A stretch of DNA of 64,000 nt, from contig CM068587.1 in assembly GCA_035048485.1 (NCBI GenBank), positions 54,283,501 through 54,347,500 of the forward strand, read 5' to 3'. Shown here piece by piece: positions 7,801 to 56,981 of this stretch (positions are counted from its first letter, which is position 1; each line of letters starts with the position of its first letter). A program made the position numbers and the translations under genes. This DNA comes from Pteria penguin. Lineage: Eukaryota; Mollusca; Bivalvia; Pterioida; Pteriidae. Below the pieces are notes generated by a model that saw nothing but the letters and a program-made list of their open reading frames with translations, did no database searches and had not been told where the DNA came from.

Positions 7801-10800
7801 TCACAACAGGCTGACAGACAAATAAACAAACAGACAGGTAAAAACCAATATGCCCCCAATCTATCAATCTGGGGGCATAAAAAGTGACTGCATACCATGA
7901 AAGTAAAACTGAGTAGAGTTTTTTTTATTTTAACAAAGACTTGGCCAGAGATTTACAGTTACATAAGAGAAGACTCTTTGTAAAGCATCAGTTAAGATCC
8001 ACACTTATAATCTAGTTTACAAAGGAAAATTTGATGTGTTTATAAAACACAAACATACCTGGCAGCAATAAAGTTAAAGCTGGACAAAAAGACTAACATG
8101 AAAAAGGCTACATATCATTGTGATAGGACATATAAATGTACACAAAATATACTATATAACAATGTACATACCGGGAGATTTTGTGGAGGATTTTGTCTGA
8201 AAGCGTCCCTGGCCTTGAGGATGAGAAACTTGGACAAGCTGGTGACCTCCCTGGCATACAATGCTCCTTGCCGCTTGAGTCGATTAACCACTAGCTCTAT
8301 CACCTTCAAAACAATTATCATATCAACTATCCTAATTAGTGTCTTATGACTTTTACAGGTAAGTGTTCAGCTCTAAGAGTGGATTTTTATGAAGTACATG
8401 TACTGTCACCAAAGTGTGTTGTGTGATTTCATAAAAATATCTTTTTGTTTCTTGCCTAATATGAAGCCTAAAAGTAAAACAGAAGACAAAATTTGGAAGA
8501 CAAACCTATGAAACCACATTTAGCAGTATTAAAAGTGATACATATAAAGTCTTGAATGGACCAATTACCTGCAAGTACTTTTTTTTAATGGCAGTGAGTT
8601 CATCTCCAAGGGGGACAACAATTTTCTCGACTTTCCTCTCATGAGAATACTGCTTGATGTCTATCGAGTCTTCAGTTCTAAGTTCGATATGAGAAATCAA
8701 GAGATTCACCAGCACCTGTTGTACCGCCTAAATTAAAAAATTCAAATTTGAATTTGAAATATTAAAATTACTGTACAGTAAAAATTTTAGGAACCTATTC
8801 CAATATAGTAAACTTTAATATTTACATTGACATACACTAACATGCATGACAATAATTTTTCATAGCTTCAGTCTCCTTTTCATTTTCCTTGTGTATTCTG
8901 TTTTCTCACTCTTTAAATCAGAAATCCTATTTTTCAAAATACAAAGACATGTTTACATGCTTCAAGTATAAAGATAATGTAGGTTAAATATAATTAAAAC
9001 TTTTCAATCAAAAAAAAACAAACTTGTATCTCAAGACACAATTTATATGATTATAAGTTATAAAGAAAAAAGCTTTCACAGTGCCAGTATTATTCAAGGT
9101 AATTTTGTTTCTAAACCTTTGCATGATTCAAGTATAAAATGTTGCTATCGATAACTAGTGCCAAATGTGACCTTGACACATCTGAGGGTTGCCATGGGTT
9201 TAACTTTCTATCCTTGAAAGATTTTATTTCCCAGCTAACAATGACCCTTGGCTGCAATTAATTAGCTTCTAACTAGGAGCAAACCTTGTTGATCATTTGG
9301 CATGTGATACGTACAATGTTATGTGTGAACATTTGAGTACTCTTACTGCATATAGCCTTACCTTGATATAACTGCCTGGGGTAGCACAAAGCCTTACTCT
9401 GATATCACTGCCTGGTATAGCACATAGCTTTACCTTGATATCACTGCCTGGGGTAGCACATAGCCTTACCTTGATAACACTGCCTGGGGTAACACATAGC
9501 CTTATCTTGATATTACTGCCTGGTGTAGCACATAGCCTTACCTTGATCTCACTGCCTGGGGTAGCACATAGCCTTATCTTGATATCACTGCCTTGTGTAG
9601 CACATAGCCTTACCTTGATAACACTGCCTGGGGTAGCACATAGCCTTATCTTGATATCACTGCCTGGCGTAGCACAAAGCCTTACCTTGATATTACTGCC
9701 TGGGGTAGCACAAAGCCTTATCTTGATATCACTGCCTGGCGTAGCACAAAGCCTTACCTTGATAACACTGCCTGGGGTAGCACATAGCCTTATCTTGATA
9801 TCACTGCCTTGTGTAGCACATAGCCTTACCTTGATAACACTGCCTGGGGTAGCACATAGCCTTATCTTGATATCACTGCCTGGCGTAGCACAAAGCCTTA
9901 CCTTGATATTACTGCCTGGGGTAGCACATAGCCTTATCTTGATATCACTGCCTGGCGTAGCACAAAGCCTTACCTTGATATTACTGCCTGGAGTAACACA
10001 TAGCCTTACCTTGATATCACTGTCTGGTACAGCACATAGCCTTACCTTGATATCACTGTCTGGTATAGTACATACCCTTACCATGATATCACTGCCTGGG
10101 GTAGCACAAAGCCTTACCTTGATATCACTGCCTGGTATAGCACAGAGCCTTACCTTGATATCACTGCCTGGTGTAGCATATAGCCTTACCTTGATATCAC
10201 TGCCTGGTGTAACACAAAGCCTAACCTTGATATCACTACCTGGTATAGCAATTAGCCTTACAATGATATCACTGCCTGGTGTAGTGATTAGCCTTACCTT
10301 GATATCACTGCCTGGTGTTGCCTTTAGCCTTACCTGGATATCACTGCCTGGTGTAGCATACATCCTTACCTTGATATCACTGCCTGGTGTAGCATACATC
10401 CTTACCTTGATATCACTGCCTGGTGTTGCACATAGCCTTACCTTGATCTCACTGCCTTGTGTAGCACATAGCCTTATCTTGATATCACTGCCTGGCGTAG
10501 CACAAAGCCTTATCTTGATATCACTGCATGGTGTAGCACAGAGCCTTACCTTGATATCACTGCCTGGTGTAGCACATAGTCTTACCTTGATATCACTGCC
10601 TGGTGTAGCACATAGCCTTACCTTGATATCACTACCTGGTGTTGCACTTAGCCTTACCTGGATATCACTGCCTGGTGTAGCATATAGCCTTACCTTGATA
10701 TAACTGCCTGGTGTAGCACATAGTCTTACCTTGATATCACTGCCTGGTGTAGCACATAGTCTTACCTTGATATCACTGCCTGGTGTAGCACATAGCCTTA

Positions 10801-13800
10801 CCTTGATATCACTACCTGGTGTTGCACTTAGCCTTACCTGGATATCACTGCCTGGTGTAGCATATAGCCTTACCTTGATATAACTGCCTGGTGTAGCACA
10901 TAGTCTTACCTTGATATCACTGCCTGGTGTAGCACATAGCCTTACCTTGATATCACTACCTGGTGTTGCACTTAGCCTTACCTGGATATCACTGCCTGGT
11001 GTAGCATACATCCTTACCTTGAGATCACTGCCTGGTGTCATGCACAGCCTTACCTTGATATCACTGCCTGGTGTTGCACTTAGCCTTACCTTGATATCAC
11101 TGCCTGGTATTGCCCTTAGCCTTACCTGGATATCACTGCCTGGTGTAGCATACATCCTTACCTTGATATCACTGCCTGGTGTTGTACTTAGCCTTACCTT
11201 GATATCACTGCCTGGTGTTGCACTTAGCCTTACCTTGATATCACTGCCTGGGGTAGCACTTAGCCTTACCTTGATATCACTGCTAGGTGTTGCACTTAGC
11301 CTTACATTGATATCACTGCCTAATGCTGCACTTAGCCTTACCTTGATATCACTGCCTGGTGTAGCATACATCCTTACCTTGATATCACTGCCTGGTGTAG
11401 CACTTAGCCTTACCTTGATATCACTGCCTGGTGTAGCACTTAGCCTTACCTTGATATCACTGCCTGGTGTAGCACTTAGCCTTACCTTGATATCACTGCC
11501 TGGTGTTGCACTTAAAGCTAACACTCTGAATTGCTTAGTGTACTTTACAAGTTCTCTTACAACCTGCAGACCAAAATGTTAGATTATTCTATACCAACAG
11601 AACAATTGCTGATCAGTAAATATAGGTGTTATTACAAGTAATTTAGTTGGAGTTACCTCCCGTGGTTGGCCATGTTGTGGTCAAGCAGGTGTTTTTGTCT
11701 CATGTTCACACTTTTTTTTAATAATTTTGAGAAAGTTGGTTATATTTACACTTCTTTGGAAATGGTTTTGAATTGTATATTTTTTTCAAAACTAGCACAA
11801 GCATTGCAAAAACACAAGTATTATCCTAAATCTAGAGAAATATTTTAAGAAATTTGGTTGATTTATGAACAAATATGATGTAAAGACTGTAGACAAATTT
11901 ATCAAAAGGGAAGTAACACCAATGAAATTTTATGTTAATGAAACATTACTATTGAAGTACATCAGCATTCGTTTACTTTAATACATATAACAGGGGGGGG
12001 GGGGGGGGGGCCGGGTTTATTTAGTGAAGGAAGTAGAAGTACTTCATGTAAACTATCCACTTAGTGCAGATGTTTAGAGTTGTCTTAAGTGACCTAATTC
12101 AAAAATAATTGAGTGATCGTCAAATGCCCGACATCACACATTTTGGCACACTTACTCATGACGTCATAAATAAATGGCCCGTCAAATATGAGATTATCTA
12201 TGACGTCACAATGGACTCTCTAACAGTCAAATGATTAAAAAAGGGAAACAATTACAGGATGTACTGGGTAGTGAGAATGAAATTCAAATTTAAACAAAAT
12301 TTATCATTTTATTTTTATCCTCCTGTATTTTACCTTTTTATTGCATTTGATCATTAATTTTATTTTCTGAAATGTTTAATAGTCCTGAAACAGACTGGCA
12401 CAATTTATACATACCTGACAATAAGCATGGTTACCCTGGGCTTTATGAGCTTCGTCTATGACCAGACACTTGACCATCTCAGCAGGGCATGTTCCTCGGC
12501 TCAAATCGTTGGTCAGCACTTGTGGTGTCAAAAAGAATACTCTGCGACTATGCCAAGACTTACGTCGCTCAGTTGGAGACATATTACCTGAAATAAGGGA
12601 AATTAATCACTCAACAGCTTATCAGAAATAAACAAACATTTTCCAGATCTATTTATTTGTCGCTTTTCTCCACTTTCAAGAATATCACATCTGTCAAGCA
12701 GCAGCACTACCTCTCGTATGTTGAAAGTTTAACCAGCAGCTGAGCATCCTTGATTCAGGAAACAAAAATTTTAAATGTGCCGAGCCCTAGTTATAGGCTT
12801 TGACATAAAGTTTCTGTCTTCAAATATACAACTGACAATGCCATGGATCCAGGGAAGTTTGAACACACCAACATTTCGATTACGACCTATCTTATGTACC
12901 ATCAAAATTCCTTGCTTCAAGGCAGATGATGTCATTTAAAATAATTTTTTGTTACACATAAATATGACATATTTACATTGTAAGGAATGTATACTACTGT
13001 AAGTTTACTATCTTCCTAACACTGGAGCACCTGTCATTTCTGCTGTGTCTGATTGGGGAATCCCCATTATATTGTAGCATGCTTCTATCTGTTGAGCTAC
13101 CAAGGGTTTTGTGGGAGCCATGAATACAACTTTTCCCTGTGGATACCACCTGTGAAAAAAGATCTTATATTATATTTATATCAGAACTATCTAAAGTGTG
13201 TTATGTATAAAGATATCAAAATGTATAACGAATCCACTCTGTGATAAATCATTCACATATTTACAAACACAAATAAAATGACCTGGTACCTTACATTTTT
13301 TAACTTGATGCCCTGATTGGCTAAGCGATTTTTCGTTTATGTCCATCAACGAAATTTTTCCTATGAAATCAAGTCTTAATGCTTTCTTCTTGTGTTCAAA
13401 ACATATATGGAATAAATCTAATCATGTTTTTTTTTTTATGGATGGAGGTATACTCCATAAAAAAGAATGGAAAACTATGTAGTACATGATGCAGTTTTTC
13501 ATCATTTTTAGGGGTATCCATCCCCTAAAAATTTTTACTTTCATGTCTTAATTCTCTGACATACAGATGTGTATAATGGCTAAACTTTTATGATATAAAA
13601 CCCATGAGCTCCGAAAACTATCACAAAACTTAGTGGTGAGAGTCTCAATCTATTCAGTGCAGCCCTATAAACTACTCACTATGCTCTGACACTCCTGTAG
13701 CTATTACTAATGGCAAAATCTACTCAGTGCAGCCCAACAGTCTAATCACTATGCTCTGACACTCCTGTAGCTATTACTAATGGCAAAATCTACTCAGTGC

Positions 13801-14948
13801 AGCCCAACAGACTACTCACTTTCCTCTGATACTCCTGTAGCTATTACTAATGGCAAAATCTACTCAGTGCAGCCCTATAGACTACTCACTATGCTCTGAT
13901 GCTCCTGTAGCTATTACTAATGACAAAATCTACTCAGTGCAGCCCAATAGACTACTCACTTTCCTCTGATGCTCCGGTAGCTATTACTAATGGCAAAATC
14001 TACTCAGTGCAGCCCAATAGACTATTCACTATGCTCTGAGACTCCTGTAGCTATTACTAATGGCTCAATCTACTCAGTGCAGTCCAATAGACTACTCACT
14101 ATGCTCTGACGCTCCTGTAGCTATTGCTGATGGCAAAATCTACTCAGTGCAGCCCAATAGACTACTCAGTATGCTCTAACACTCCTGTAGCTATTACTAA
14201 TGGCAAAATCTACTCAGTGCAGCCCAATAGACTATCACTATGCTCTGACGCTCCTGTAGCCATTACTAATGGCAAAATCTACTCAGTGCAGCCAAATAGA
14301 CTACTCACTATGCTCTGATGCTCCTGTAGCTACAGATGGGTGCAGTCCTAACATAACATGCACGTTAACGCAAAAAGCGGTCACGAGGACTGCTTTAGCA
14401 CACGTGCTAGGACTGCTGGACCGGACGCGTGTGCGCTCCTCGTGTTAACGCAGGAGGGAATTCGCGTTAACGCGATTTATTCCCGCGTGCGCTCGGTCCA
14501 GTCGCACGTTCACATGTCTACATGTATATTTGTAATTCTCTATGCAATACGGATGGAGAAAATTAAATGGATCTAATTGACTTACCGCGAATGTCGCCAT
14601 AAAAACGTGTATTAAATGTAATGTTAAAATCAAACCCTACATTAAGGATTTTATATGTAATACAACAATGGAAATTATCGCGTAGACATGCAATAAGGTA
14701 TATATGAAAAAAAATCCTGAGTTTATACTAGCATTATTAGATTCTAATTTCATTTATTTACTTATTTTTAATTAGTTTATTTATGTTTTTATTTCTTATT
14801 TGGTTATTCATTTATAACTAATTTATTTATGTATTTACATGTATTTCTTATTTAGGTATTTATTATTATTATTTTTAATTAAGCTATTTTCTATGATATA
14901 TGAAAATAATAATTATCATCATTATTATTATATTTATTAATTTTTATT

Positions 14949-14996
<48 letters not shown>

Positions 14997-17900
14997 GTAT
15001 TATCCTAAAAGAAGAATAAATTTCATTCAAGTCAATGTTCGGAAATTGCGTTCAATATTTTTAAAATTCATTCCTTAACTTGGAAGGGTTTTATTTAATT
15101 CTAAATATTTTACCTACACATTAATATGTTTTTCATATTTGAATATACAATGCATATATCGATTCTCCTTCAAAACCTTCTATATGAACATGTTAATACA
15201 AGTTTTAAGTTGTACACAAGCGAACGTGGCTGTCAAACACGTTCATGCGACAGTCAAGCGCGTTAACGCGGCGGTCAATTAAGTTCACGTGGAAATCTGC
15301 GTTAACGCAAACGCGTGTGCTCAGCAGTCCTGAGCGCACGAGGAAAGCAAACTTCACGTTAACGCGACGTTAACATAATGATATGTTAGGACTGCCCCTC
15401 ACTGTATTACTAATGGCAAAATCTACTCAGTGCAGCCCAATAGACTACGTACTTGGCTCTGATACTCCTGTAGCTATTACTACTGGCTTAGTCTACTCAG
15501 TGCAGCCCAATAGACTATCACTATGCTCTGATGCTCCTGTAGCTATTACTAATGGCAAAATCTACTCAGTGCAGTCCAACAGACTACTCACTATACTCTG
15601 ACACTACTGTAGATATTACTGATGGCAAAATCTACTCAGTGCAGCCCAACAGTCTAATCACTATGCTCTGACACTCCTGTAGCTATTACTAATGGCTTAG
15701 TCTACTCAGTGCAGCCCAATAGATTACTCACTATGCTCTGACACTCCTGTAGCTATTACTAATGGCTCAATCTACTCAGTGCAGCCCAACAGACTACTCA
15801 CTTTCCTCTGATGCTCCTGTAGCTATTACTAATGACAAAATCTACTCAGTGCAGCCCAATAGACTATTCACTATGCTCTGATGCTCCTGTAGCTATTACT
15901 AATGGCAAAATCTACTCAGTGCAGCCCAATAGACTACATACTTGGCTCTGAGACTCCTGTAGCTATTACTATTGGCTTAGTCTACTCAGTGCAGTCCAAT
16001 AGACTATCACTATGCTCTGATGCTCCTGTAGCTATTGCTGATGGCAAAATCTACTCAGGGCAGCCCAATAGACTATCACTATGCTCTAACACTCCTGTAG
16101 CTATTACTAATGGCAAAATCTACTCAGTGCGTCCCAATAGACTACTCACTATGCTCTGACACTCCTGTAGCTATTACTAATGGCAAAATCTACTCAGTGC
16201 GTCCCAATAGACTACTCACTATGCTCTGACACTCCTGTAGCTATTACTACTGGCTAAGTCTACTCAGTGCAGCCCAATAGATTACTCACTATGCTCTGAC
16301 ACTCCTGTAGCTATTACTAATGGCTCAATCTACTCAGTGCAGCCCAACAGTCTAATCACAATGCTCTGACGCTCCTGTAGCTATTACTAATGACAAAATC
16401 TACTCAGTGCAACACAACAGTCTAATCACTATGCTCTGATGCTCCTGTAGCTATTACTACGAGCAAAATCTACTCAGTGCAGCCCTATAGACTACTCACT
16501 ATGCTCTGACGCTCCTGTAGCTATTACTAATGGCAAAATCTACTCAGTGCAGCCCAACAGTCTAATCACTATGCTCTGATGCTCCTGTAGCTATTACTAA
16601 TGGCAAAATCTACTCAGTGCAGCCCTATAGACTACTCACTATGCTCTGATGCTCCTGTAGCTATTACTAATGGCAAAATCTACTCAGTGCAGCCCTATAG
16701 ACTACTCATTATGCTCTGATGCTCCTGTAGCTATTACTAATGGCAAAATCTACTCAGTGCAGCCCACTTGACTACGTACTTGGCTCTGACACTCCTGTAG
16801 CTATTACTACTGGCTTAGTCTACTCAGTGCAGCCCAATAGACTATCACTATGCTCTGATGCTCCTGTAGCTATTACTAATGGCAAAATCTACTCTGTGCA
16901 GTCCAATAGACTACTCACTATGCTCTGATGCTCCTGTAGCTATTACTGATGGCAAGATCTACTTAGTGCAGCCCAACAGTCTACTCACTATACTCTGACA
17001 CTCCTGTAGCTATTACTGATGACAAGATCTACTCAGTGCAGCCCAACAGTCTAATCACTATGCTCTGACATTCCTGTAGCTATTACTACTGGCAAAATCT
17101 ACTCAGTGCAGCCCAATAGATTACTCACTATGCTCTGACACTCCTGTAGCTATTACTAATAGCAAGATCTACTCAGTGCAGCCCAACAGTCTAATCACTA
17201 TGCTCAGATGCTCCTGTAGCTATTACTTATGGCTTAATCTACTCAGTGCAGCCCTATAGACTACTCACTATGCTCTGATGCTCCTGTAGCTATTACTAAT
17301 GGCAAAATCTACTCTGTGCAGTCCAATAGACTACTCACTATGCTCTGATGCTCCTGTAGCTATTACTGATGGCAAGATCTACTTAGTGCAGCCCAACAGT
17401 CTACTCACTATACTCTGACACTCCTGTAGCTATTACTGATGACAAGATCTACTCAGTGCAGCCCAACAGTCTAATCACTATGCTCTGACATTCCTGTAGC
17501 TATTACTACTGGCAAAATCTACTCAATGCAGCCCAATAGATTACTCACTATGCTCTGACACTCCTGTAGCTATTACTAATCATTATGGCAAAATCTACTC
17601 AGTGCAGCCCAACAGTCTAATCACTATGCTCTGATGCTCCTGTAGCTATTACTTATGGCTTAATCTACTCAGTGCAGCCCTATAGACTACGCACTATGCT
17701 CTGATGCTCCTGTAGCTATTACTTATGGCTTAATCTACTCAGTGCAGCCCTATAGACTACTCACTATGCTCTGATGCTCCTGTAGCTATTACTTATGGCT
17801 TAATCTACTCAATGCAGCCCTATAGACTACTCACTATGCTCTGACATTCCTGTAGCTATTACTACTGGCAAACTCTACTCAGTGCAGCCCAATAGATTAC

Positions 17901-20900
17901 TCACTATGCTCTGACACTCCTGTAGCTATTACTAATGGCAAAATCTACTGAGTGCAGCCCAACAGTCTAATCACTATGCTCTGATGCTCCTGTAGCTATT
18001 ACTTATGGCTTAATCTACTCAGTGCAGCCCTATAGACTACTCACTATGCTCTGATGCTCCTGTAGCTATTACTTATGGCTGAATCTACTCAGTGCAGCCC
18101 TATAGACTACTCACTATGCTCTGATGCTCCTGTAGCTATTACTTATGGCAAAATCTACTCAATGCAGCCCTATAGACTACTCACTATTCTCTGATGCTCC
18201 TGTAGCTATTACTTATGGCAAAATCTACTCAGTGCAGCCCAATAGACTACTCACTATGCTCTGATGCTCCTGTAGCTATTACTTATGGCAAAATCTACTC
18301 AGTGCAGCCCAATAGACTACTCATTATGCTCTGATGCTCCTGTAGTTATTACTTATGGCTTAATCTACTCAGTGCAGCCCTATAGACTACTCACTATGCT
18401 CTGATGCTCCTGTAGCTATTACTTCTGGCTTAATCTACTCAGTGCAGCCCTATAGACTACTCACTATGCTCTGATGCTCCTGTAGCTATTACTAATGGCT
18501 CAATCTACTCAGTGCAGTCCTATAGACTACTCACTATGCTCTGATGCTCCTGTAGCTATTACTTATGGCTTAATCTACTCAGTGCAGCCCTATAGACTAC
18601 TCACTATGCTCTGATGCTCCTGTAGCTATTACTTATGGCTTAATCTACTCAGTGCAGCCCTATAGACTACTCACTATGCTCTGATGCTCCTGTAGCTATT
18701 ACTAATGGCTTAATCTACTCAGTGCAGCCCTATAGACTACTCACTATGCTCTGATGCTCCTGTAGCTATTACTTATGGCTTAATCTACTCAGTGCAGCCC
18801 AACAGTCTAATCACTATGCTCTGATGCTCCTGTAGCTATTACTTATGGCTTAATCTACTCAGTGCAGCCCTATAGACTACGCACTATGCTCTGATGCTCC
18901 TGTAGCTATTACTTATGGCTTAATCTACTCAGTGCAGCCCTATAGACTACTCACTATGCTCTGATGCTCCTGTAGCTATTACTTATGGCTTAATCTACTC
19001 AATGCAGCCCTATAGACTACTCACTATGCTCTGACATTCCTGTAGCTATTACTACTGGCAAACTCTACTCAGTGCAGCCCAATAGATTACTCACTATGCT
19101 CTGACACTCCTGTAGCTATTACTAATGGCAAAATCTACTGAGTGCAGCCCAACAGTCTAATCACTATGCTCTGATGCTCCTGTAGCTATTACTTATGGCT
19201 TAATCTACTCAGTGCAGCCCTATAGACTACTCACTATGCTCTGATGCTCCTGTAGCTATTACTTATGGCTTAATCTACTCAGTGCAGCCCTATAGACTAC
19301 TCACTATGCTCTGATGCTCCTGTAGCTATTACTTATGGCTTAATCTACTCAATGCAGCCCTATAGACTACTCACTATGCTCTGACATTCCTGTAGCTATT
19401 ACTACTGGCAAACTCTACTCAGTGCAGCCCAATAGATTACTCACTATGCTCTGACACTCCTGTAGCTATTACTAATGGCAAAATCTACTGAGTGCAGCCC
19501 AACAGTCTAATCACTATGCTCTGATGCTCCTGTAGCTATTACTTATGGCTTAATCTACTCAGTGCAGCCCTATAGACTACTCACTATGCTCTGATGCTCC
19601 TGTAGCTATTACTTATGGCTTAATCTACTCAGTGCAGCCCTATAGACTACTCACTATGCTCTGATGCTCCTGTAGCTATTACTAATGGCAAAATCTACTC
19701 TGTGCAGTCCAATAGACTACTCACTATGCTCTGATGCTCCTGTAGCTATTACTGATGGCAAGATCTACTTAGTGCAGCCCAACAGTCTACTCACTATACT
19801 CTGACACTCCTGTAGCTATTACTGATGACAAGATCTACTCAGTGCAGCCCAACAGTCTAATCACTATGCTCTGACATTCCTGTAGCTATTACTACTGGCA
19901 AAATCTACTCAATGCAGCCCAATAGATTACTCACTATGCTCTGACACTCCTGTAGCTATTACTAATCATTATGGCAAAATCTACTCAGTGCAGCCCAACA
20001 GTCTAATCACTATGCTCTGATGCTCCTGTAGCTATTACTTATGGCTTAATCTACTCAGTGCAGCCCTATAGACTACGCACTATGCTCTGATGCTCCTGTA
20101 GCTATTACTTATGGCTTAATCTACTCAGTGCAGCCCTATAGACTACTCACTATGCTCTGATGCTCCTGTAGCTATTACTTATGGCTTAATCTACTCAATG
20201 CAGCCCTATAGACTACTCACTATGCTCTGACATTCCTGTAGCTATTACTACTGGCAAACTCTACTCAGTGCAGCCCAATAGATTACTCACTATGCTCTGA
20301 CACTCCTGTAGCTATTACTAATGGCAAAATCTACTGAGTGCAGCCCAACAGTCTAATCACTATGCTCTGATGCTCCTGTAGCTATTACTTATGGCTTAAT
20401 CTACTCAGTGCAGCCCTATAGACTACTCACTATGCTCTGATGCTCCTGTAGCTATTACTTATGGCTGAATCTACTCAGTGCAGCCCTATAGACTACTCAC
20501 TATGCTCTGATGCTCCTGTAGCTATTACTTATGGCAAAATCTACTCAATGCAGCCCTATAGACTACTCACTATGCTCTGATGCTCCTGTAGCTATTACTT
20601 ATGGCAAAATCTACTCAGTGCAGCCCAATAGACTACTCACTATGCTCTGATGCTCCTGTAGCTATTACTTATGGCAAAATCTACTCAGTGCAGCCCAATA
20701 GACTACTCATTATGCTCTGATGCTCCTGTAGCTATTACTTATGGCTTAATCTACTCAGTGCAGCCCTATAGACTACTCACTATGCTCTGATGCTCCTGTA
20801 GCTATTACTTATGGCTTAATCTACTCAGTGCAGCCCTATAGACTACTCACTATGCTCTGATGCTCCTGTAGCTATTACTGATGGCAAAATCTACTCAGTG

Positions 20901-23900
20901 CAGCCCTATAGACTACTCACTATGCTCTGATGCTCCTGTAGCTATTACTAATGGCTTAATCTACTCAGTGCAGCACTATAGACTACTCACTATGCTCTGA
21001 TGCTCCTGTAGCTATTACTTATGGCTTAATCTACTCAGTGCAGCCCTATAGACTACTCACTATGCTCTGATGCTCTTGTAGCTATTACTTATGGCTTAAT
21101 CTACTCAGTGCAGCCCTATAGACTACTCACTATGCTCTGACGCTCCTGTAGCTATTACTTATGGCTTAATCTACTCAGTGCAGCCCTATAGACTACTCAC
21201 TATGCTCTGATGCTCCTGTAGCTATTACTTATGGCTTAATCTACTCAGTGCAGCCCTATAGACTACTCACTATGCTCTGATGCTCCTGTAGCTATTACTT
21301 ATGGCTTAATCTACTCAGTGCAGCCCTATAGACTACTCACTATGCTCTGATGCTCCTGTAGCTATTACTTATGGCTTAATCTACTCAGTGCAGCCCTATA
21401 GACTACTCACTATGCTCTGATGCTCCCATGAGTAGTGCTACAGTACTACTGAATCAACAACTCACCTGTAAAAATTATACATGACAACAGCTGCTATGAA
21501 GGTTTTCCCTAGGCCCGTGGGTAGAGTGACCATAGTGTTCTTGAGGAGGGACTGGTGTACGATGTTATACTGGTAGTCTCTGACCGGGTAATTGGTGGGA
21601 TATATCCAAAGCTTTCCTGCTGCCTTATCAAAGCCATCAGGGGCCACAACCTGGGATAGCCCAGTACAGGAAGATAAAGACTCGGCTCCCATGGAAATGT
21701 TAAAGACGTCTGATATCCCTGCAGTCTCAGGGAAGCTATGTTGTTTTTCTTTGATTTCATCAGGATTCTCATTTGTATTGTGCACATGTATGCTGCTTGC
21801 TCCAGCACCTATTGTTCCATGTGAATCCAAAAGTCCAAGTGTCTCATCTGCAGCCTAGAAAATAAAACTGGTTTTTATGATTCTTATATTAGAATATGAA
21901 GAACTAACTTCATACTAGTATTAAAAATTTTATACCAAATAATAAAGAATAAGATATAATAAGTAGTCCTCCAAAGGGAAGTCAATTATACTAATAGAAA
22001 TAACACAAACACTCTTTGCCGCAAATTTTCGGCCTCCTGGCCTTTATCAAGCAATAGTTAGAATAGTACAGTAGATCTACGTAACATCCATCTTTACATG
22101 TCTAATATAAACAAGCTTCTGAACTCTGAACGTCATAACGTCATTATTACGCACATAAGAATGGCATTAAAATTGACTTAACATAATAATACAAGTATAA
22201 ATATAAAAACCACATCGACAGACCAACCGCCAGACCGATCAACTGACAATCTGATCGACCAACCGACCGTAAGACAGACCGACCGGGCGATAGTGGCAAA
22301 GTAACACCCCCACATTTCCGAAAAGGGGGAGGGGCCGAAAATTTGCATCAAAGAGTGTTTGTCTTAATAAAGAATGATCCTTCTCTAAAAGTAGAATTAG
22401 TGTCAATGTGAAGCATTGTGACTTATTTGTATGTTTGATTCTTGTTTTATGTCACACCAATGTACCCCATATATGTACTGGTGTACAGGTATATGTTTTG
22501 GTGTACTGGTATATGGAGATGGCATCAGCTGGATGCAGTGCACAGCCATTTTGACCTATGCAAAGGATCCATTCAAAGCACCGTGACACTGAATTCCGGT
22601 TTTTATTGTCATATCTGAATGACAGGACACAGTGAGGGATCTTTCATGTATTACTTCTACCATGATAAGGGACCTGGGTTTTACTGCCTCATTTGAAAGA
22701 CATAGATGAGCCATTGGTGAAAATTGAATTTGGCTTCATTTGACTTGTGGTTACAGGAGCTCCAAGGTCAATCCATGACCTGTACCACTAAACCTGGCAC
22801 CATTTGACTTGTGGTTACAGAAGCTCCAAGGTCAATCCATGACTTTTACCACTAAGTTGAAGACATTACCAACCTATCATTCTACTAGAGTTTCTGAAGA
22901 GTCTGAGGTTCACTGACCATATCTTTTTCAATGTTTTATCACCTTCACTACGTCTAGATTTGTATGTGGAACTGTGTTAAATTATAATATCTATTACACA
23001 TTACTTTTCTAGCATCAGTTAGTACATCAAACAGACTCATCATCATAATGGCTACAAAAATGAGAGAAAAATAGAGCTTTAAGATTTTCATGACTGCTGT
23101 AATTGTGATTGAACTTGTAATAACAATTCCTACATTGAGTGTATTGGGCAGCATGCATTTATCATTCCAGTGAAGTTTCATAAAGTTCCCTAGAATCAAA
23201 ACAGTTTTGTTAATTAAGATTCATCATACCTGCCATAAATATGAGAAAATTTTAAAATATCATGTATTGTCAAATACCGGTAACAGTGAAGAAGCATTGA
23301 TGAATACATGTACATGTGATAAAATTACATTTTTTTTATTTTTAACTCTTTCTTATTTTTCAGAAGGGTAAAGGTGCTTGTAAATTAAAGTAACTGAGCT
23401 TTCTTGATAGCACTTAATTCTTCCCAATGTGTTTGTAAGTGCAGAATTTGTCAGCATCAAATCTGTTTTGTTCCATACCTGTACCAGTATGTCATCATCG
23501 TCGTCTTCTTCACACAAATCTATCACACCACTGGATCCACCAACAGTTGGTCTCTTTCCATCATTAGAGTCAATATGGCTGGCTGTAACGTTAAAAAACA
23601 TTCATGGGTATCTGGTGTATCTGATATTGACATAATCTGCAATTTAGCGTAAATATACTTTTTTTTTGTTTGTTTGTTTGATTATTGTTTTACGTCACTC
23701 CACGATTATTTCACGTATATGGTGACGGCATCTGCCTGATGCATTGCATACAAATTTAGACCTTTGCAACGGACCCACCCGAAGCAGTGAGGGATCTTTT
23801 ACGTGCCACGCCTACCGTGACACGGGACCTCGGTTTTTACTGTCTCATCCGAAAGACAGAACACCGGTGTGCCCCGGGCGGGAGTCAAACCCGCGACCTC

Positions 23901-27626: not shown

Positions 27627-27808
27627 ATGGAGTCTGATTGTACATTAGATGCCCTGACAGCTTCACTGAAAGAGATCAGGGACACAAAGGAATCCGTCCT
27701 ATCAGCCGTAAGGAATTACCTCAAAACAGACGGCACAGAAAACTTTATAGAGAAAGGCATTGGACAGATGTTTAAGCTAGCTGTATCATACAGGAAAGCA
27801 TTTGATAG
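27627..27808 (+). CDS. SELENOL: SelL exon 1
   Basis: The ATG at 27627 is preceded by GTTGAAG; in this frame it is the first ATG before MESDCTLDALTASLKEIRD. The exon ends GATAG|GTAATT in phase 2. Its last 18 bases and the donor are the seed of the 40-bp array that follows. The 5' UTR boundary was not determined. Confidence 0.88.
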
Positions 27809-30800
27809 GTAATTATATTCATGTAACATACAGGAAAGCATTTGATAGGTAATTATATTTATGTAACATACAGGAAAGCCTCTGATAGGTAATTATCTTC
27901 ATGTAACATGCAGGAAAGCATTTGATAGGTAATTATCTGCATGTAATATACCGGAAAGCATTTGATAGGTAATTATCTGCATGTAACATACCGGAAAGCA
28001 TTTGATAAGTAATTATCTTCATGTAACATGCAGGAAAGCATTTGATAGGTAATTATCTGCATATAACATACAGAAAAGCATTTGATAGGTAATTATCTTC
28101 ATGTAACATACAGGAAAGCATTTGATAGGTAATTATCTTCATGTAACATACAGGAAAGATGTGAAAAACGATGGCCAGACTAGCATTCAATCTCAAAACC
28201 CTTTATCAACAGAGTAGGTGCTCAATCACTCAGTCTACTACTTGGGCCAGTATTATGATATTCATGTACATACATACAGTCTGCCAGTTCTCTTCCCTGC
28301 CAGTTTGAAGTTCAGATTTCCTAAAACCTCCTAAACTCCAGTCTTAATCCTTCTAAACTAAACTCCAGTCAAAAACCTCCTAAACTTCAGTCCTCCTCTC
28401 ATGATTGATGAGTGCACCTTCCTATAACAAATATTATTCACTAATGAGAGTTTGAATCTCCATAATCTGTAAAAATTAAGGCAGAGATTTAAAGCGCTCA
28501 CCAGACTGAACTTTGATTTCAGATGCCTCTGCCACCAATTTTCAGATAAATTACCTCTTATCTGTCAGGGCCACTGACTTAGTTTTCTGTAAAAGGATAT
28601 GATTGAATGTGCTATACACATATCTCATTGATCCTGAAAAATATGACTGATTCATTATAAATATATACTTTAAGTGATTTACTGATTGGGCATTATTTGT
28701 TATATTGGATGCATACATAGATCAAGTATGAAAACGAACACTGTTAAATGTATTTGATATTGCAGATTAGAAGTAACAAGTAAAGAAAAGTTTGATAGAA
28801 TAGTCAAGGAACATTTCAGGTAAATTAAGAATGTGAACTGGGTTATAAGACCTGGGTCCGGCGCCATAAACTGAGAATATACTTAAGTCAAAATTTTCAT
28901 TTTAATTTATTTCATTATCAAACGTTCAAATAAATTTTTATGCAAAATGGTTTAATTCTATTTATCAGTAGAATAAAACTAAATAAAATCCAAATCCTAG
29001 TTATTAATTCATTGATGAACAGAAGAATATGAATTTTTGACTTAAGTATATTCTCAGTTTATGGCACACGACCCTGAACTTACATTAATTTAGGAAAGAA
29101 ATACCTATTTTTAGATCAAGAAATTTATTTACCTATCTATATAAGACTATACATGTCTATCTAAAGATAAATATACAATGTACAGGCTTCTGTAAATAAA
29201 ATTTAAGTAATTAATTTTTAAGATATTTTTAGGCTTCACTGATACATATTTTTCAGTATAGTACTTTAAATCATAAAACTTGCAGATATTTCATTCCTGT
29301 ACATGATTAATTATAGACAACTTGCATTTTGGAGGTACATATAGTAATGAACTGTACGTGTGTTGTTACTGGGTTTTTTTTAGACATCATGAGATTCAGG
29401 AGCTTGAAGAAGAAATTCATTCTTATGAAGTATGTCAATTCATCACTTTCAGTGTTTTCCTTAAAAAATCCTCTTTTTTCATATTACATGTAAATCTAAG
29501 AAAAATGTTTATTTGTAATTTTTAAGTTCTGGAAAGGTAACAGTTGCAACTTGCTCTTTTTTACCAGTCTTATCTAGACGATTTAATCCCACAGTCAGTA
29601 ACATGTCGTCTTAACGAATACTTGTAAAATATAATTTAATGAAGTCCTGTTTGTCTACACTGAACATTGACCTGCATAGCTTTAACAAAATTAATGATAT
29701 AACTTTTGATATGAAAGCAGGACATACTGCACAATTTCCATAGATTGATTTATGTTGTTTATCAGTGAATAGAGTGCTGGGTTTGCATATTGTTCATATA
29801 ATTTATAGATTCTAGCAGTGTAAAAAATTCAACTCTTCTGAATGTAAGCAGAAATGAAAAGTAATTCAGTAAGATGAATCTAAATCACATCATACTGTTT
29901 GTTGTCTATATTTCATATAGAGCAACTTTCTCTTATTTTCAATGTGAGTCTTGTATAGAAACTTGCAGTTCATATATAAAGAACTACGGTAACAATTAAT
30001 TTGACTTGTCAATATTTTCCTTAACAGAGAGAATGGGATGATTTCCTTCTTGACATAGATAAGACTTTGGTAACAGTGGGTAAACCTTCCTTAGTTGTGA
30101 GGGACTTAGCACCTGTTGACCTAGATCTCATTGATGCCAGAACTGATGTAACGACCAATCTTCAAACCTATATCAGAGGTAGACACCTTCTCTTGGTGCT
30201 ACTACGACACTTTGCCTGACTCCCATGACGAGAACACCTGAAACAGCTTCAGAAAGATGAGGTTTAGTGGATAATTGTGTTTACATTTTGATTTTATTAT
30301 GACTTGTTGTTGTTCAGTGTCCACCTACCAGAAGCTTGTGTGGTTCAGTGGATGAGGTACTCTGCATGTGACATACAGGTCCAGGGTTTGAGTCCTGTCG
30401 TGGGCACGCCAGTGTCCTGTTTTTTCGGATAAGACAGTAAAAACCAAGATTCTGTGTCACAGTAAGCGTGGCACATTAAACGATCCTTCTCTGCTTTGGG
30501 TCAGTCCACTGCAAAGGTATTAATTTATACACAATGCAACGGGGGAATGCCGTCACCAAATAATCGTTGAGTGACATAAAACAATAATCAATAAACCTGA
30601 ATCCATACGTTAAACTCTCGTTCTCGGAAATTTCTCTCATTTAGGTGAATTGTTGCTAGCTGCTTGAGGCATTAGTGTTTTGTAAACACATTTTGATGAA
30701 ATTTTAATTAAAACAAATAAAAATTATATCAGAGATTTGATTGGTGTAGATGGTGCCTCCTGATAGCATTAGTAGCCAAAAATCAGACTTGTCACGAGAA

Positions 30801-33800
30801 CATCAGCATTGATATGTTCTCAATGTGCTGGTTTAAGACTTACTGAGCTTAGGTAGACTAAAATAGCAAAGACCTTGACGAAAGCATACTAACTCATATA
30901 AATCAAGATTATGTAAATATGAATTTATTATTAGTATTGGATCTCTATTTTATTAAAATGTAGAGTTTTACATATTTCTGATATCTCGAGATAATAAATG
31001 GAGATACATGTATTATTTTCATTTTCTATATTGATATGCACAACTTAATGATATTCTTACAGATGCTGATCACAGAACAGAATGCAACAATTGTTGTTGT
31101 GTCTTTTGGAGTGAGGGAGGGAGCCTTAAAATGGCTGGAGGACACAAAGTGTCCTTATCCCATGTTACTAGATCAGAAAAGACAGGTAGGCCTATCATGT
31201 TACTAGATCAAAAAAAGACAGGTAAGCCCATCATGTTACTAGATCAGAAAATACAGGTAGGCTCATCATGTTACTAGATCAGAAAATAAAGGTAGGCTCA
31301 TCATGTTACTAGATCAGAAAATACAGGTAGTCTTATCATGTTACTAGATCAGAAAATAAGGTAGGCTTATCATGTTACCAGGTCCCAAAAGACAGGTATG
31401 CCCATCATGTTACTATATCAGAAAATACAGGTAGGCTCATCATGTTACTAGATCAGAAAATACAGGTAGGCTCATCATGTTACTAGATCAGAAAATACAG
31501 GTAGACTCATCTTGTTACTAGATCAGAAAATACAGATAGGCACATCATGTTACTAGATCAGAAAATACAGGTAGGCCCATCATGTTACTAGATCAGAAAA
31601 TAAGGTAGGCTTATCATGTTACTAGGTCCCAAAAGACAGGTAGGCCCATTATGCTACTACTTCAGAAAAACAGGTAGGCTCATCATGTTACTAGATCAGA
31701 AAAGACAGGTAGGCTCATCATGTTACTAGATCAGAAAATACAGGTAGGCTCATCATGTTACTAGATCAGAAAATACAGGTAGACTCATCTTGTTACTAGA
31801 TCAGAAAATACAGATAGGCACATCATGTTACTAGATCAGAAAATACAGGTAGGCCCATCATGTTACTAGATCAGAAAATAAGGTAGGCTTATCATGTTAC
31901 TAGGTCCCAAAAGACAGGTAGGCCCATTATGCTACTACTTCAGAAAAACAGGTAGGCTCATCATGTTACTAGATCAGAAAAGACAGGTAGACTCATTATG
32001 TTACTAGATCAGAAAATACAAGTAGGCTTATCAGGTTATTAGATCAGAAAATAAAGGTAGGCTCATCTTGTTACTAGGTCTGAAAAGACACTGTAGGCCC
32101 ATCATGTTACTAGATCAGGAAAGACAGATAGGGCCATATCATGTTACTATCAAAACAGCATGTCACTCATACAAATGATATTGATATACCTGTATCTGTC
32201 AAACATAATGCTAGATTTTCTATGTACTGATTGTGATTTGGTGAGGTGATTAAAGACACCCAGCTATTAGTATAGGTGATCAATGTACAATTACCAGATT
32301 ATGCTTCTTCATGTGTCCAACTTCCGGTCTCCATGTTGTGGTACAAGTGAAATATTGTGGAAAGCGAAATCAAATTCTAATAAACCAACATTTGAATCAA
32401 TGGTCAATACCATAAAAAATAAATGCAGCTCTTCTAGAGTAACATTGATTGTGAATTTATGTGTAGTTCATGTTTAAAAAATTGTCTTTGTATTTTTACA
32501 GCTCTACGCATCTTTCGGATTGAGACGCTCTGTTCATAAGGTATATATACATGTATTTTTAACAGTCTTTCAAGAAATATAAAAGTATCTGGTTACTGTT
32601 TAAAAAGGAGAATAAGTGACACCTACTGAAATATTTAAACAATCTGTGTTTGTGAAATACATGTACTAATGCCTCCAGTGTCACTAAAGTCCAAAAAGTT
32701 ATTTTTAGCGTTAAGGTCATTGTCAAAAGGCCATTGACCTTGGTGTCATTTCAATGTGCTTCATTAGTTGAGTATGCATGTCAAAAATGAAGTCTCTATT
32801 TCTCAAGGTTCAAAAGTTACAGCCAAGGTTAAAGTTGACAACAGACAAACAGGACAAAAACATTATGCCCCCAATCTGTCTATCTGGGGGCGTAAAGAAA
32901 ATTAGAATATTTTACAAACCGTCCAGACATACCTTCTTGACCAATAAAGATACACACTCATCTTTAAATCACATCACACAAGAATTGCAGTATTCTACAT
33001 GTCCCATGTATCAAATACAGCAACACAGGTCTTCCTTCGTGAAGAGATACAGTTAACATAATATTTGACAACATATTTTAATGTATAATCTAGATTATTT
33101 TATGACAGGATCGTTAAGCCAGTTTTACCTCCTTTTTGTCAGGTATGGAGTGTAAGCTGTATGGTGTTCTATGCAGAGAAGATGGCACAAGGTGTGTCCC
33201 TGATCAAACCCTATGACAATGTCCATGACGACCCACAGCAGGTAAACAGATTTAGCATGCTTAGCAAAGGCAAAATGTTTAAATACTCCACATGAGGGTT
33301 TTTAAGTTTTATTTTATTTTGCTCCATATGAACATTAACAACAAAGTGTGTATTTAGCAAAAGGTTATTAATTTTTAAAATGTGATGCAGAAATTGGAAC
33401 AGTTGTTGCATTTAATGGATTTAAAGTATCCATGCACTTGGCCAAATTATCAGATGCTTATAGTGATGTATACTGGAGACTTTTGCCTTGGCTTAAAAAC
33501 GTACATATTTGTAGCTATTGAAAATAAAAATAACAAATGTAAGCTTAAATAATATTTTTTCATTTATATTAAGGATTTCAGTGACTGAGGGAAATTATCA
33601 TGGCTCAGTATATAACATGCTCCTAGCACACAGATGTTCTTGGTTGATTCTAGTCATGGGAAGCTCACCGTGTTCTGTCTTTAGTGCGAAAAATCTGTAT
33701 CAGGGTTGAGTCAGGCATGTAAAAGATCCCTAACCTCTTTGCTTTGGGTCTTTTGCATAGGTGTGATTTTCTGCACGATGCCTCAAGGTAGATGTCACCA

Positions 33801-35215
33801 TGCAAGTGAAAAAATCTCGGCGAGATAACGAACATCAAAAGAACCAATGACCAAGTGAGCTAAGGTGCCTTGCAGGAACTTGCCATAGGTTTAAATTCAT
33901 GATGGTTCTGGTTTTGATCCCTAGTTTAGGCAAGTGGGAAGGTGTGCCAGTGTTCCTGCTGAAGGTCAGTGGATTTCTCCAACATTAAGCACTGGTCACC
34001 ACTACAAGTCAGTGGCTTCCTTCACCACTTAACACTGCATACTACATGTACCTAAGAGGGGTTAGTTGACTGGTGTTTTACGATGCTTCTACAATTTTTC
34101 AGTTGTATTGCGACATGGAAGCAGAAGGTAACCAACCTCTGAATAATCGTGGCACAATCTGGGAATGGAGCCCAGATTGTAGGCGCCGCAAGCCAAGTGC
34201 TTAACCATTACACCACACCTGCCCCACCGCAGAGGGGAAATAAACCAATTATGACACAAACCAGTAACATACATCTGAATTTCTAACATGGATACTATTT
34301 ATTGTGCGTATTTTATTACAGATGGGAGGTGACTTTATCATCGACAGTAAAGGTGTCATGCAGTACATGTATTGCAGCCAATTCTCCAGTGATAGGCCAC
34401 CCGTTGCTGAGCTAGTCGAGAAACTAAAGGTTTGTATACTCGATGTGAAGCATTCCAGCGACACAGATTTTGTGCATTCAGTGAAGTGATTCTCTCACTT
34501 CTATCCAGACTAGATACGATTCCGTTATCAATATTAGGTGGGTCTGCTTGTATATGCAACCCAAGATGTAGTTTCCATGACAGGTGCTAGCTTTGAACTA
34601 CTTAATGCAGTAATACTACTGCAAATATACACATGTGAAAGTAAGAACTCGCTCAAGTAGCAAGAGCATGGCAATTACTGATAGAACACCTTCTGCATGG
34701 TTAAACTCAATTATACTCCAACATATTTAGTGAGAATTTTTGCATTTAGACTCAAGGTAATTATATCTTTGGTCAACACTGAATGCCACACTCTAGAATG
34801 ACTTAGCTGCATGTACCATACGCATGGTGGCAAATTATACAAGTGGAGAAATCAGACAAAGCAAACTACGTTCTGTATGTTCTTTTCCACTGTCAGCAGC
34901 CATGACTTAGTTGCCAGTTTTGGAATAATGTTGCTGACCTTCAGAAGTTTGTGTATGTTGTTCATGTTTAAATGTATATTATATCCAAGTATCAAATCAG
35001 TTCCTGGTTTCTGCCACTATATATCTCTTTAAGAAGTTAGTCATCTCATCAATCCTTGATCTGATAGAGTTACATTTGTACAAGTATATTAAAAGTTGCT
35101 GAAAGTGTGTAGAACACCAGTCAACCAACTAAATATACAAGTTCTACATGTTTTATTATCAACACATTTTTGTTATCTATTTCAGAAACTAAACGAGAAA
35201 ACTTGTAGATTATGA
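27627..35215 (+). CDS. SELENOL: Selenoprotein L (SelL), peroxiredoxin-like, two selenocysteines
   Basis: SelL is a thioredoxin-fold, peroxiredoxin-like selenoprotein of aquatic animals whose Sec-x-x-Sec motif can form a diselenide (family knowledge); its physiological substrate is not known to me. Nine exons sum to 915 nt: 27627-27808, 28766-28819, 29384-29429, 30028-30261, 31063-31185, 32502-32540, 33143-33241, 34322-34429 and 35186-35215. The product is 304 residues. Exon 4 reads HLLLVLLRHFA-TGA-LP-TGA-REHLKQ, putting Sec at 158 and 161 where peroxiredoxin-like relatives have CxxC. Downstream blocks TIVVVSFGVREGALKWL, CPYPMLLDQKRQLYASFGL and GGDFIIDSKGVMQYMY are typical of the AhpC/TSA-like (PRXL2) fold. 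The N-terminal 120 residues are helical and charged. The stop is TGA, followed at once by a SECIS hairpin. Ordinary gene finders would cut the protein at codon 158. Confidence 0.93.
27791..28158. repeat. 40-bp minisatellite seeded on the SelL exon 1 donor
   Basis: About nine copies of CAGGAAAGCATTTGATAGGT followed by AATTATCTTCATGTAACATA. The first copy contains the true exon end and donor GATAG|GTAATT; the others are intronic and nearly all keep the GTAATT donor. Use of a later donor would add AGG TAA, an immediate stop. Confidence 0.95.
28766..28819 (+). CDS. SELENOL: SelL exon 2
   Basis: The exon has 54 nt, acceptor ATTGCAG and donor CAG|GTAAAT, phase 2 to 2. With the split Arg codons it encodes RLEVTSKEKFDRIVKEHFR. 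Confidence 0.88.
28854..29074. mobile_element. MITE with GGGTC...GCCATAAACTG inverted ends
   Basis: The left end GCCATAAACTGAGAATATAC, then TTAAGTCAAAATT, is repeated inverted at the right end (GAATTTTTGACTTAAGTATA, TTCTCAGTTTATGGC). Arms about 45 bp, length about 220 bp. It lies in SelL intron 2. Confidence 0.75.
29384..29429 (+). CDS. SELENOL: SelL exon 3
   Basis: The exon has 46 nt, acceptor TTTTTTTAG and donor GAA|GTATGT, phase 2 to 0. It encodes HHEIQELEEEIHSYE, a charged helical, possibly coiled-coil, segment. Confidence 0.87.
30028..30261 (+). CDS. SELENOL: SelL exon 4 with both Sec codons
   Basis: The exon has 234 nt, phase 0 to 0, acceptor CTTAACAG and donor GAG|GTTTAG. It encodes REWDDFLLDIDKTLVTVGK, a linker, then GRHLLLVLLRHFA followed by TGA-CTC-CCA-TGA and REHLKQLQKDE. 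The frame is open across 78 codons if both TGA are read as Sec. A donor-like AGAG|GTAGAC just before the Sec motif could mislead gene prediction. Confidence 0.92.
30217..30228 (+). other. SELENOL: Sec-Leu-Pro-Sec (UxxU) redox motif, two recoded TGA codons
   Basis: TGA at 30217-30219 and 30226-30228 are in the exon 4 frame and separated by CTC CCA. They fall at the N-terminus of the helix where peroxiredoxin-like proteins carry their CxxC redox pair, after the HFA strand. Double recoding within four codons is the defining trait of SelL. Confidence 0.9.
30334..30597 (+). mobile_element. tRNA-derived SINE in SelL intron 4
   Basis: The head has A-box TGGTTCAGTGG and B-box GGGTTTGAGTCC. The body includes AAACGATCCTTCTCTGCTTT and GGGGGAATGCCGTCACCAAA. 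The tail is AAACAATAATCAATAAA. Same family as 23657-23943, inserted in the opposite orientation. Confidence 0.8.
31063..31185 (+). CDS. SELENOL: SelL exon 5
   Basis: The exon has 123 nt, acceptor TTCTTACAG and donor CAG|GTAGGC, phase 0 to 0. It encodes MLITEQNATIVVVSFGVREG, then ALKWLEDTKCPYPMLLDQKR and Q. Its last 25 bases and donor seed the array in intron 5. Confidence 0.92.
31160..32145. repeat. About 35-bp minisatellite seeded on the SelL exon 5 donor
   Basis: About 28 copies of CATGTTACTAGATCAGAAAA followed by TACAGGTAGGCTCAT. The first copy spans the true exon end and donor (GACAG|GTAGGC at 31185/31186). Later copies mostly keep ACAG|GTAGGC. A block at about 31500-31640 is duplicated at about 31797-31940, including the rare variant AGGTCCCAAAAGACAG. 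Confidence 0.95.
32502..32540 (+). CDS. SELENOL: SelL exon 6
   Basis: The exon has 39 nt, acceptor TTTTTACAG and donor AAG|GTATAT, phase 0 to 0. It encodes LYASFGLRRSVHK, the LYxxFGL block common to AhpC/TSA-like relatives. Confidence 0.92.
32650..32897 (+). repeat. Interspersed repeat ending in a TGCCCCC...GGGGGC hairpin
   Basis: Second copy of the family at 7619-7880: GTTTGTGAAATACATG, TTAAGGTCATTGTC, GACAACAGACAAACAGG and TATGCCCCCAATCTGTC with ATCTGGGGGCGTAAAG. It lies in SelL intron 6. Confidence 0.65.
33143..33241 (+). CDS. SELENOL: SelL exon 7
   Basis: The exon has 99 nt, acceptor TTTGTCAG and donor CAG|GTAAAC, phase 0 to 0. It encodes VWSVSCMVFYAEKMAQGVSL and IKPYDNVHDDPQQ. Confidence 0.92.
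33620..34226. repeat. SINE-like cluster in SelL intron 7
   Basis: Two decayed tRNA-headed pieces. One is read forward near 33850-33925 (AAGTGAGCTAAGGTGCC, GGTTTTGATCC). The other is read on the minus strand, ending near 34226 (GTGTGGTGTAATGGTTAAGC), with body near 34060. Neither folds as a clean tRNA by inspection. Confidence 0.5.
34322..34429 (+). CDS. SELENOL: SelL exon 8
   Basis: The exon has 108 nt, acceptor TTATTACAG and donor AAG|GTTTGT, phase 0 to 0. It encodes MGGDFIIDSKGVMQYMYCSQ then FSSDRPPVAELVEKLK, the GGDFIID beta-strand and final helix of the fold. Confidence 0.92.
35186..35215 (+). CDS. SELENOL: SelL terminal coding exon
   Basis: Acceptor CTATTTCAG, then KLNEKTCRL and a TGA stop at 35213-35215. 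The TGA is only about 16 nt from the base of the SECIS stem. Confidence 0.88.
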   Translation, partial: KLNEKTCRL

Positions 35216-41274: not shown

Positions 41275-41420
41275 ACAGATGTCTTTTATTGGTCACAAGT
41301 TGTCTTGTTACGAGCTGTCTCGTTAACGAGTTGTCTTGTTATGAGTTGTCTCGGTGACGAGTTGTCTTGTTACCAGTTGTCTTGATACAAGTTGTCTCGG
41401 GGACGAGTCGTCTTGATACC
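41275..41420. repeat. Degenerate 15-16-bp tandem repeat
   Basis: About nine imperfect copies of GAGTTGTCTTGTTAC (variants TCTCGGTGACGAG, TCTTGATACAAG). Confidence 0.8.

Positions 41421-47706: not shown

Positions 47707-56981
<9,275 letters not shown>

Follow-up and report, generated by a model that had tools for sequence, protein, structure and literature searches.

The FANCM gene in the window (the whole stretch of 64,000 nucleotides of Pteria penguin DNA analysed here) contains an exon whose end is repeated head-to-tail together with its 5' splice site. This arrangement raises the question of whether the copies are additional donors, by which a helicase of variable length could be produced or the inclusion of an exon could be tuned, or whether they are a neutral expansion of an intron. 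Tandem repeats across exon-intron borders are found in Adh3 and in the globin genes BflGb6 and BflGb9 of amphioxus, where they are called mirages, according to the excerpted text of PMC3087553.

The FANCM exon and its array

Twelve exons of the minus strand, joined by script, form a single open FANCM frame of 712 residues. Residues 74 to 639 matched the structure of the human FANCM helicase (PDB 9el5) with an E-value of 7e-238, the archaeal relative 1wp9 was also matched in the structure-library comparison, and Pfam identified the families ResIII, DEAD and Helicase_C. The joined gene is partial: the array-bearing exon is the fourth of the joined exons and at least one further exon candidate lies upstream (23479-23582), and the window stops before the C-terminal part. 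The closest FANCM proteins to the 459 residues encoded behind the array are all from bivalves, namely Pinctada imbricata (71%), Pecten (67%) and Potamilus (66%); FANCM of Tegillarca matched at 71% over 86% of the query. The protein join between the array-bearing exon and the following exon is consistent with human FANCM, and the preliminary description was thus right in naming the gene and in letting the next exon continue exactly after the residues IK. The end of the array-bearing exon encodes what we take to be helicase motif III.

Table 1. Positions of the FANCM array, the two further donor-spanning arrays and the exons that belong to them.
Feature	Position	Strand	Basis and remarks
FANCM exon, 78 bp, phase 0/0	11486..11563	-	Spliced frame, alignment with human FANCM (9el5)
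Authentic 5' splice site GTAAGG (AAG|GTAAGG), donor at 11485	11480..11485	-	Spliced frame and donor matrix score
Next FANCM exon, starts AVQQV right after IK	8569..8727	-	Spliced frame and human FANCM alignment
Array, 60 units of 36 bp each; first unit, real exon end and donor; units 2-60, intron copies	9356..11515	-	TRF and in-register cutting
9-base stub of a 61st unit, array end	9347..9355	-	In-register cutting
AhpC/TSA-like exon, last 25 bases seed the second array	31063..31185	+	Pfam PF00578, E 3.3e-4, below cut-off; P0122
Second array across a donor, 28.3 copies of a 35-bp unit	31161..32149	+	TRF; stop within seven codons on read-through
Probable coding exon, ATG at 27627, 60 codons and two bases, ends AG|gtaatt	27627..27808	+	Sequence
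Third array across a donor, 9.4 copies of a 40-bp unit	27782..28158	+	TRF; stop in second codon after the exon

The array starts inside the 78-bp exon, occupies the 5' part of the following intron and proceeds in steps of 36 bases without a single indel (Table 1). TRF called it at 9348-11511 with a period of 36, 60.1 copies, 88% matches and 0% indels, and cutting in register yielded 60 full units, in agreement with the approximately 60-fold amplification, with the true exon end as its first unit, that had been noticed before. The window contains 36 occurrences of the sequence GGTAAGGCT, compared to 0.27 expected from shuffles. The unit was originally read as the last 30 exon bases followed by GTAAGG. 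The length of 36 bp was correct, but a division into 29 exon bases and seven intron bases (GTAAGGC) describes the duplicated piece best: the exon has T at the first position of the unit, whereas 53 of the 59 copies have C there and none has T. Units 9 and 13 are identical to the exon end across all 29 bases, 39 of the 59 copies are distinct, and the 59 units diverge further from the exon end the higher their number (Spearman 0.49, P = 9e-5). The array also shows higher-order periods with a lag of five units (units 16-30) and of two units (units 44-60), which indicate copying in blocks; repeated rounds of such copying, together with mutation, would produce this pattern.

A GT donor is present in 51 of the 60 units, GTAAG in 49 and the complete AAG|GTAAGG in 36, whereas nine units have ATAAGG instead: units 28 and 29, and a further seven in the range from 44 to 56. 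From the exon-proximal to the distal third of the array, GT is retained in 20, 18 and 13 of 20 units, respectively. With a generic donor matrix, the authentic donor scored 7.3, which is the second highest value among the 12 FANCM donors scored, and 41 of the 60 units, the real one included, reached the threshold of 7.2 and therefore resemble the authentic donor by this matrix. Four of 18 possible kinds of variants were found at the six donor positions, compared to 37 of 90 possible kinds in the exon part; this scarcity may be due to a weak constraint or arise from the copying itself.

Reading frame and protein consequences

All 720 codons of the 60 units are open. The statement that every unit is in frame and carries a near-consensus donor holds for the frame, but not for all of the donors. 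Relative to the consensus, the array contains 41 distinct variants, of which 14 are synonymous, 27 are replacements and none is a stop, compared to expected numbers of 11.1, 29.2 and 0.6. Few of the possible single changes of the consensus yield a stop. Since only 0.6 (consensus) or 0.3 (exon-like reference) stop variants are expected among these 41, and the chance of finding none is 0.54 or 0.75, respectively, the open frame says little in favour of coding. Selection for coding in the array was rejected, as all three classes of variants are close to the chance expectation. The array ORF was likewise rejected as a known domain: it drew six Pfam families, none of them with a stretch passing on its own, as is often the case for repeats. 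When the array ORF was searched against proteins, with scoring limited to the 7994 candidates that had most words in common with it, one unrelated ankyrin protein with 26% identity was returned.

Use of a distal donor would lengthen the protein by n x 12 residues, placed between the K and the A of SDIK|AVQQV. FANCM relatives were compared among the best 120 of 2827 hits, 105 of which contain the motif. In 104 of these 105 proteins, exactly 20 residues separate ATPG from the next R-x-E; the odd one, P0015, is shorter and lacks the following stretch, and an insertion at the exon junction was found in none of the 105. In the AlphaFold2 model of Pinctada FANCM (mean pLDDT 68.2; 81 for residues 181-190), a helix of residues 184-193, behind the strand 172-177 that leads into motif III, contains the junction K185/A186, and an insertion at this position would be predicted to split the helix. 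The spacing in the relatives and the position of the junction within the helix therefore make the form without insertion the expected functional product.

The 15 of the 120 proteins without the motif comprise P0025 and P0094, which lack the region, and 13 mammalian models that skip the homologous 26-amino acid exon and lose motif III in frame (P0057, P0067, P0070, P0096, P0098, P0101, P0104, P0110, P0111, P0112, P0114, P0116 and P0120). In the skipping models, the segment from VVREL to SDIK is absent and YCQ is directly joined to AVQQV, i.e. skipping of this exon is frame-neutral. Because exactly this piece is skipped, both introns flanking the exon appear to be common to mammals and the bivalve. 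By this comparison of sequences, the array appears to have enlarged an old intron and not to have created a new one.

Further donor-spanning arrays in the window

Two more arrays that span a donor, neither of which had been noticed in the preliminary description, are located on the plus strand (Table 1). The last 25 bases of the AhpC/TSA-like exon (MLITEQ...MLLDQKRQ) match the consensus of the second array at 24 positions, and AGGTA occurs 23 times in this array. In the Pinctada protein P0122, KRQ is joined straight to LYNLFGL, which is encoded by the exon 32502-32540 behind the array. P0122 fuses a CCDC97-like C-terminal domain to its AhpC/TSA part; a similar peptide, EIQELEEEIHSYE, is found near 29390 within the locus at approximately 29300-34430, and the fusion may be common to both. 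The third array follows a probable coding exon (MESDC...AFD), for which no convincing homolog was found; three structure-library hits and one weak Pfam hit were not considered credible. Since two more such arrays occur in the same 64 kb, donor-spanning arrays are not a speciality of FANCM. Among the three, only the FANCM array stays open, while units of 35 and 40 bp break the frame. As these sister arrays run into stops, the open frame in FANCM is most simply explained as a one-in-three accident of the unit length.

Seventeen arrays with a unit of 18 to 160 bp and at least 2.8 copies are present in the window. The sequences of 11 arrays were inspected and three were accepted as exon-derived; six arrays (at 41298, 43852, 48505, 49331, 51278 and 62494) were viewed by their consensus alone. 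The eight inspected arrays that were not accepted include a 45-bp array at 37659-37973 and 70-bp arrays at 242-1432, 13647-14332 and 15405-21426. The latter two, with 10 and 86 copies, respectively, lie in the FANCM intron that follows the first of the joined exons; the array at 15405-21426 starts approximately 40 bases from the donor and bears no resemblance to the exon. In 20 sampled stretches of 10 kb, 27 arrays were found, of which five, mostly chosen for a donor-like motif, were inspected and one was kept. This fourth candidate mirage (L015, 7051-7119) has a 21-bp unit and 3.3 copies and follows an ATG-bearing, putatively coding stretch that ends in CAG|GTAAGT. Since arrays of the sampled stretches were chosen largely for donor-like motifs, and the inspection was not systematic for acceptor-side mirages, the donor-side character of all accepted cases is partly a matter of selection. 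Tandem arrays make up approximately 22% of the window, and many of the sampled stretches also contain minisatellites with units of 20 to 100 bp.

The periods of the 17 arrays of the window add up to 636 bp, for which 0.2 to 0.4 overlaps with a donor are expected, compared to three seen (P 0.001-0.008; P 0.02-0.06 when the FANCM array is left out). This expectation assumes a guessed number of 20 to 40 donors in the window, and the test was devised post hoc; the excess over random seeding is therefore suggestive only. The excess of donor motifs over shuffles is weak, with P values of 0.11-0.39 for the 17 arrays of the window and 0.02-0.33 for the 27 arrays of the sampled loci. It is tempting to speculate that minisatellites repeatedly arise at 5' splice sites in this bivalve genome, with donor-spanning arrays far above random seeding that leave dozens of putative full-strength donors behind in introns, although we consider this somewhat doubtful. 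Donor arrays would then be frequent because the exon is protected by the first donor, and the site may in addition be prone to mutation.

Other features of the window include exon candidates on the minus strand at 36648-37359, presumably of FAU (ubiquitin-like/S30), and at 51806-51949, which we take to encode a calmodulin-like EF-hand protein. An Rfam tRNA match of 44.6 bits is located at 23870-23942 on the minus strand, where ARAGORN made no call.

Origin of the array and comparison with known systems

The FANCM array fits the anatomical definition of a mirage: its unit spans the exon-intron boundary, most units carry splice signals, and tandem turnover has homogenised the units in blocks. 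All units beyond the first copy can be regarded as intron, because the first copy leaves the exon and its donor intact. Furthermore, the first donor is most likely the one used, as its strength matches that of the copies and no other donor yields the normal 78-bp exon. We infer that the array is most likely a neutral mirage on the donor side, and that splicing proceeds mostly or wholly via the donor at 11485. It may have arisen by a short tandem duplication of the FANCM exon-intron border, and the duplicate would have expanded like an ordinary minisatellite, i.e. by unequal exchange or slippage of blocks of one to several units. The first donor would then be used in most or all transcripts, and the distal donors and the open frame would be by-products of copying. 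Some leakage to the donors of the next units would be no surprise, given the similar scores of 41 of the 60 units. Neutral expansion, one of the three readings offered in the preliminary description, is thus the one that fits best.

Another of these readings was a length-variable helicase, in which distal donors are used and multiples of 12 residues are inserted after motif III. The frame that is open through 60 units and the GT kept in 51 of them speak for such a protein, and a unit divisible by three is also what the array shares with coding VNTRs. However, the copies lie behind a strong donor, none of the 105 motif-bearing relatives among the best 120 of 2827 hits carries an insertion, and the junction lies within the modelled helix behind motif III. 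In addition, the variants occur as by chance, both sister arrays are out of frame, and the search with the array ORF found nothing but the unrelated ankyrin protein, so that a helicase of variable length is improbable. Somewhat more credit, although still little, can be given to a regulatory field of decoy donors, whose arrayed U1-binding sites would tune the inclusion of the exon or guard the long intron against premature polyadenylation. The 41 donors that score like the true one are consistent with this reading, as is the fact that 13 FANCM models among the 120 listed, each of them mammalian, skip the 26-amino acid exon; the decay of the distal donors and the presence of similar arrays at other exons of the window, for which a common function is not evident, argue against it.

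Long tandem arrays are often mis-sized in assemblies, and the array could be a false stutter or a collapse. One of the amphioxus mirages was aberrantly assembled in the draft, as stated in a passage of PMC3087553. However, plain stutter does not account for the FANCM array, because 39 of the 59 copies are distinct and show higher-order periods, and their divergence follows a gradient; an artefact is highly improbable. The model of intron gain by tandem genomic duplication requires AG|GT in the duplicated exon piece, and this is indeed included in the FANCM duplication. The model is discussed in the excerpted part of PMC3087553. The birth of an intron is nevertheless the least credible of all readings and can practically be dismissed, as the position of the intron appears to be old: the exon has the same borders as the piece skipped by the 13 mammalian models, and the FANCM intron apparently existed before and only grew.

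If bivalve DNA holds three mirages within 64 kb, mirages would be a wider route of intron growth. Arrays with approximately 40 near-equal competing donors would also be natural substrates to study how the spliceosome selects the first one, and gene predictors could mistake the open FANCM array for protein. The closest parallel is provided by amphioxus, whose mirages, like the FANCM array, are built of units that span an exon-intron border. Amphioxus BflGb6 has six and three units in two haplotypes, and Adh3 data and RT-PCR of the globins suggest that regular splicing is not disturbed by mirages, according to the relevant passages of PMC3087553; a mirage of amphioxus troponin C and similar repeats in PGBD5 are mentioned in an excerpt of PMC3902484. 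In the literature listed by searches for molluscs or boundary-spanning repeats, no report of mirages in molluscs was found; a nematode review among the listed papers contains the word mirage once. In contrast to the few units of BflGb6, the FANCM array of the bivalve comprises 60 copies; it lies on the donor side, whereas amphioxus mirages are reported on both sides, and it is known from the DNA sequence, whereas RT-PCR supports the amphioxus cases. Taken together, and within the scope of these searches, the FANCM array is new in its taxon and in its local density, but not in kind.
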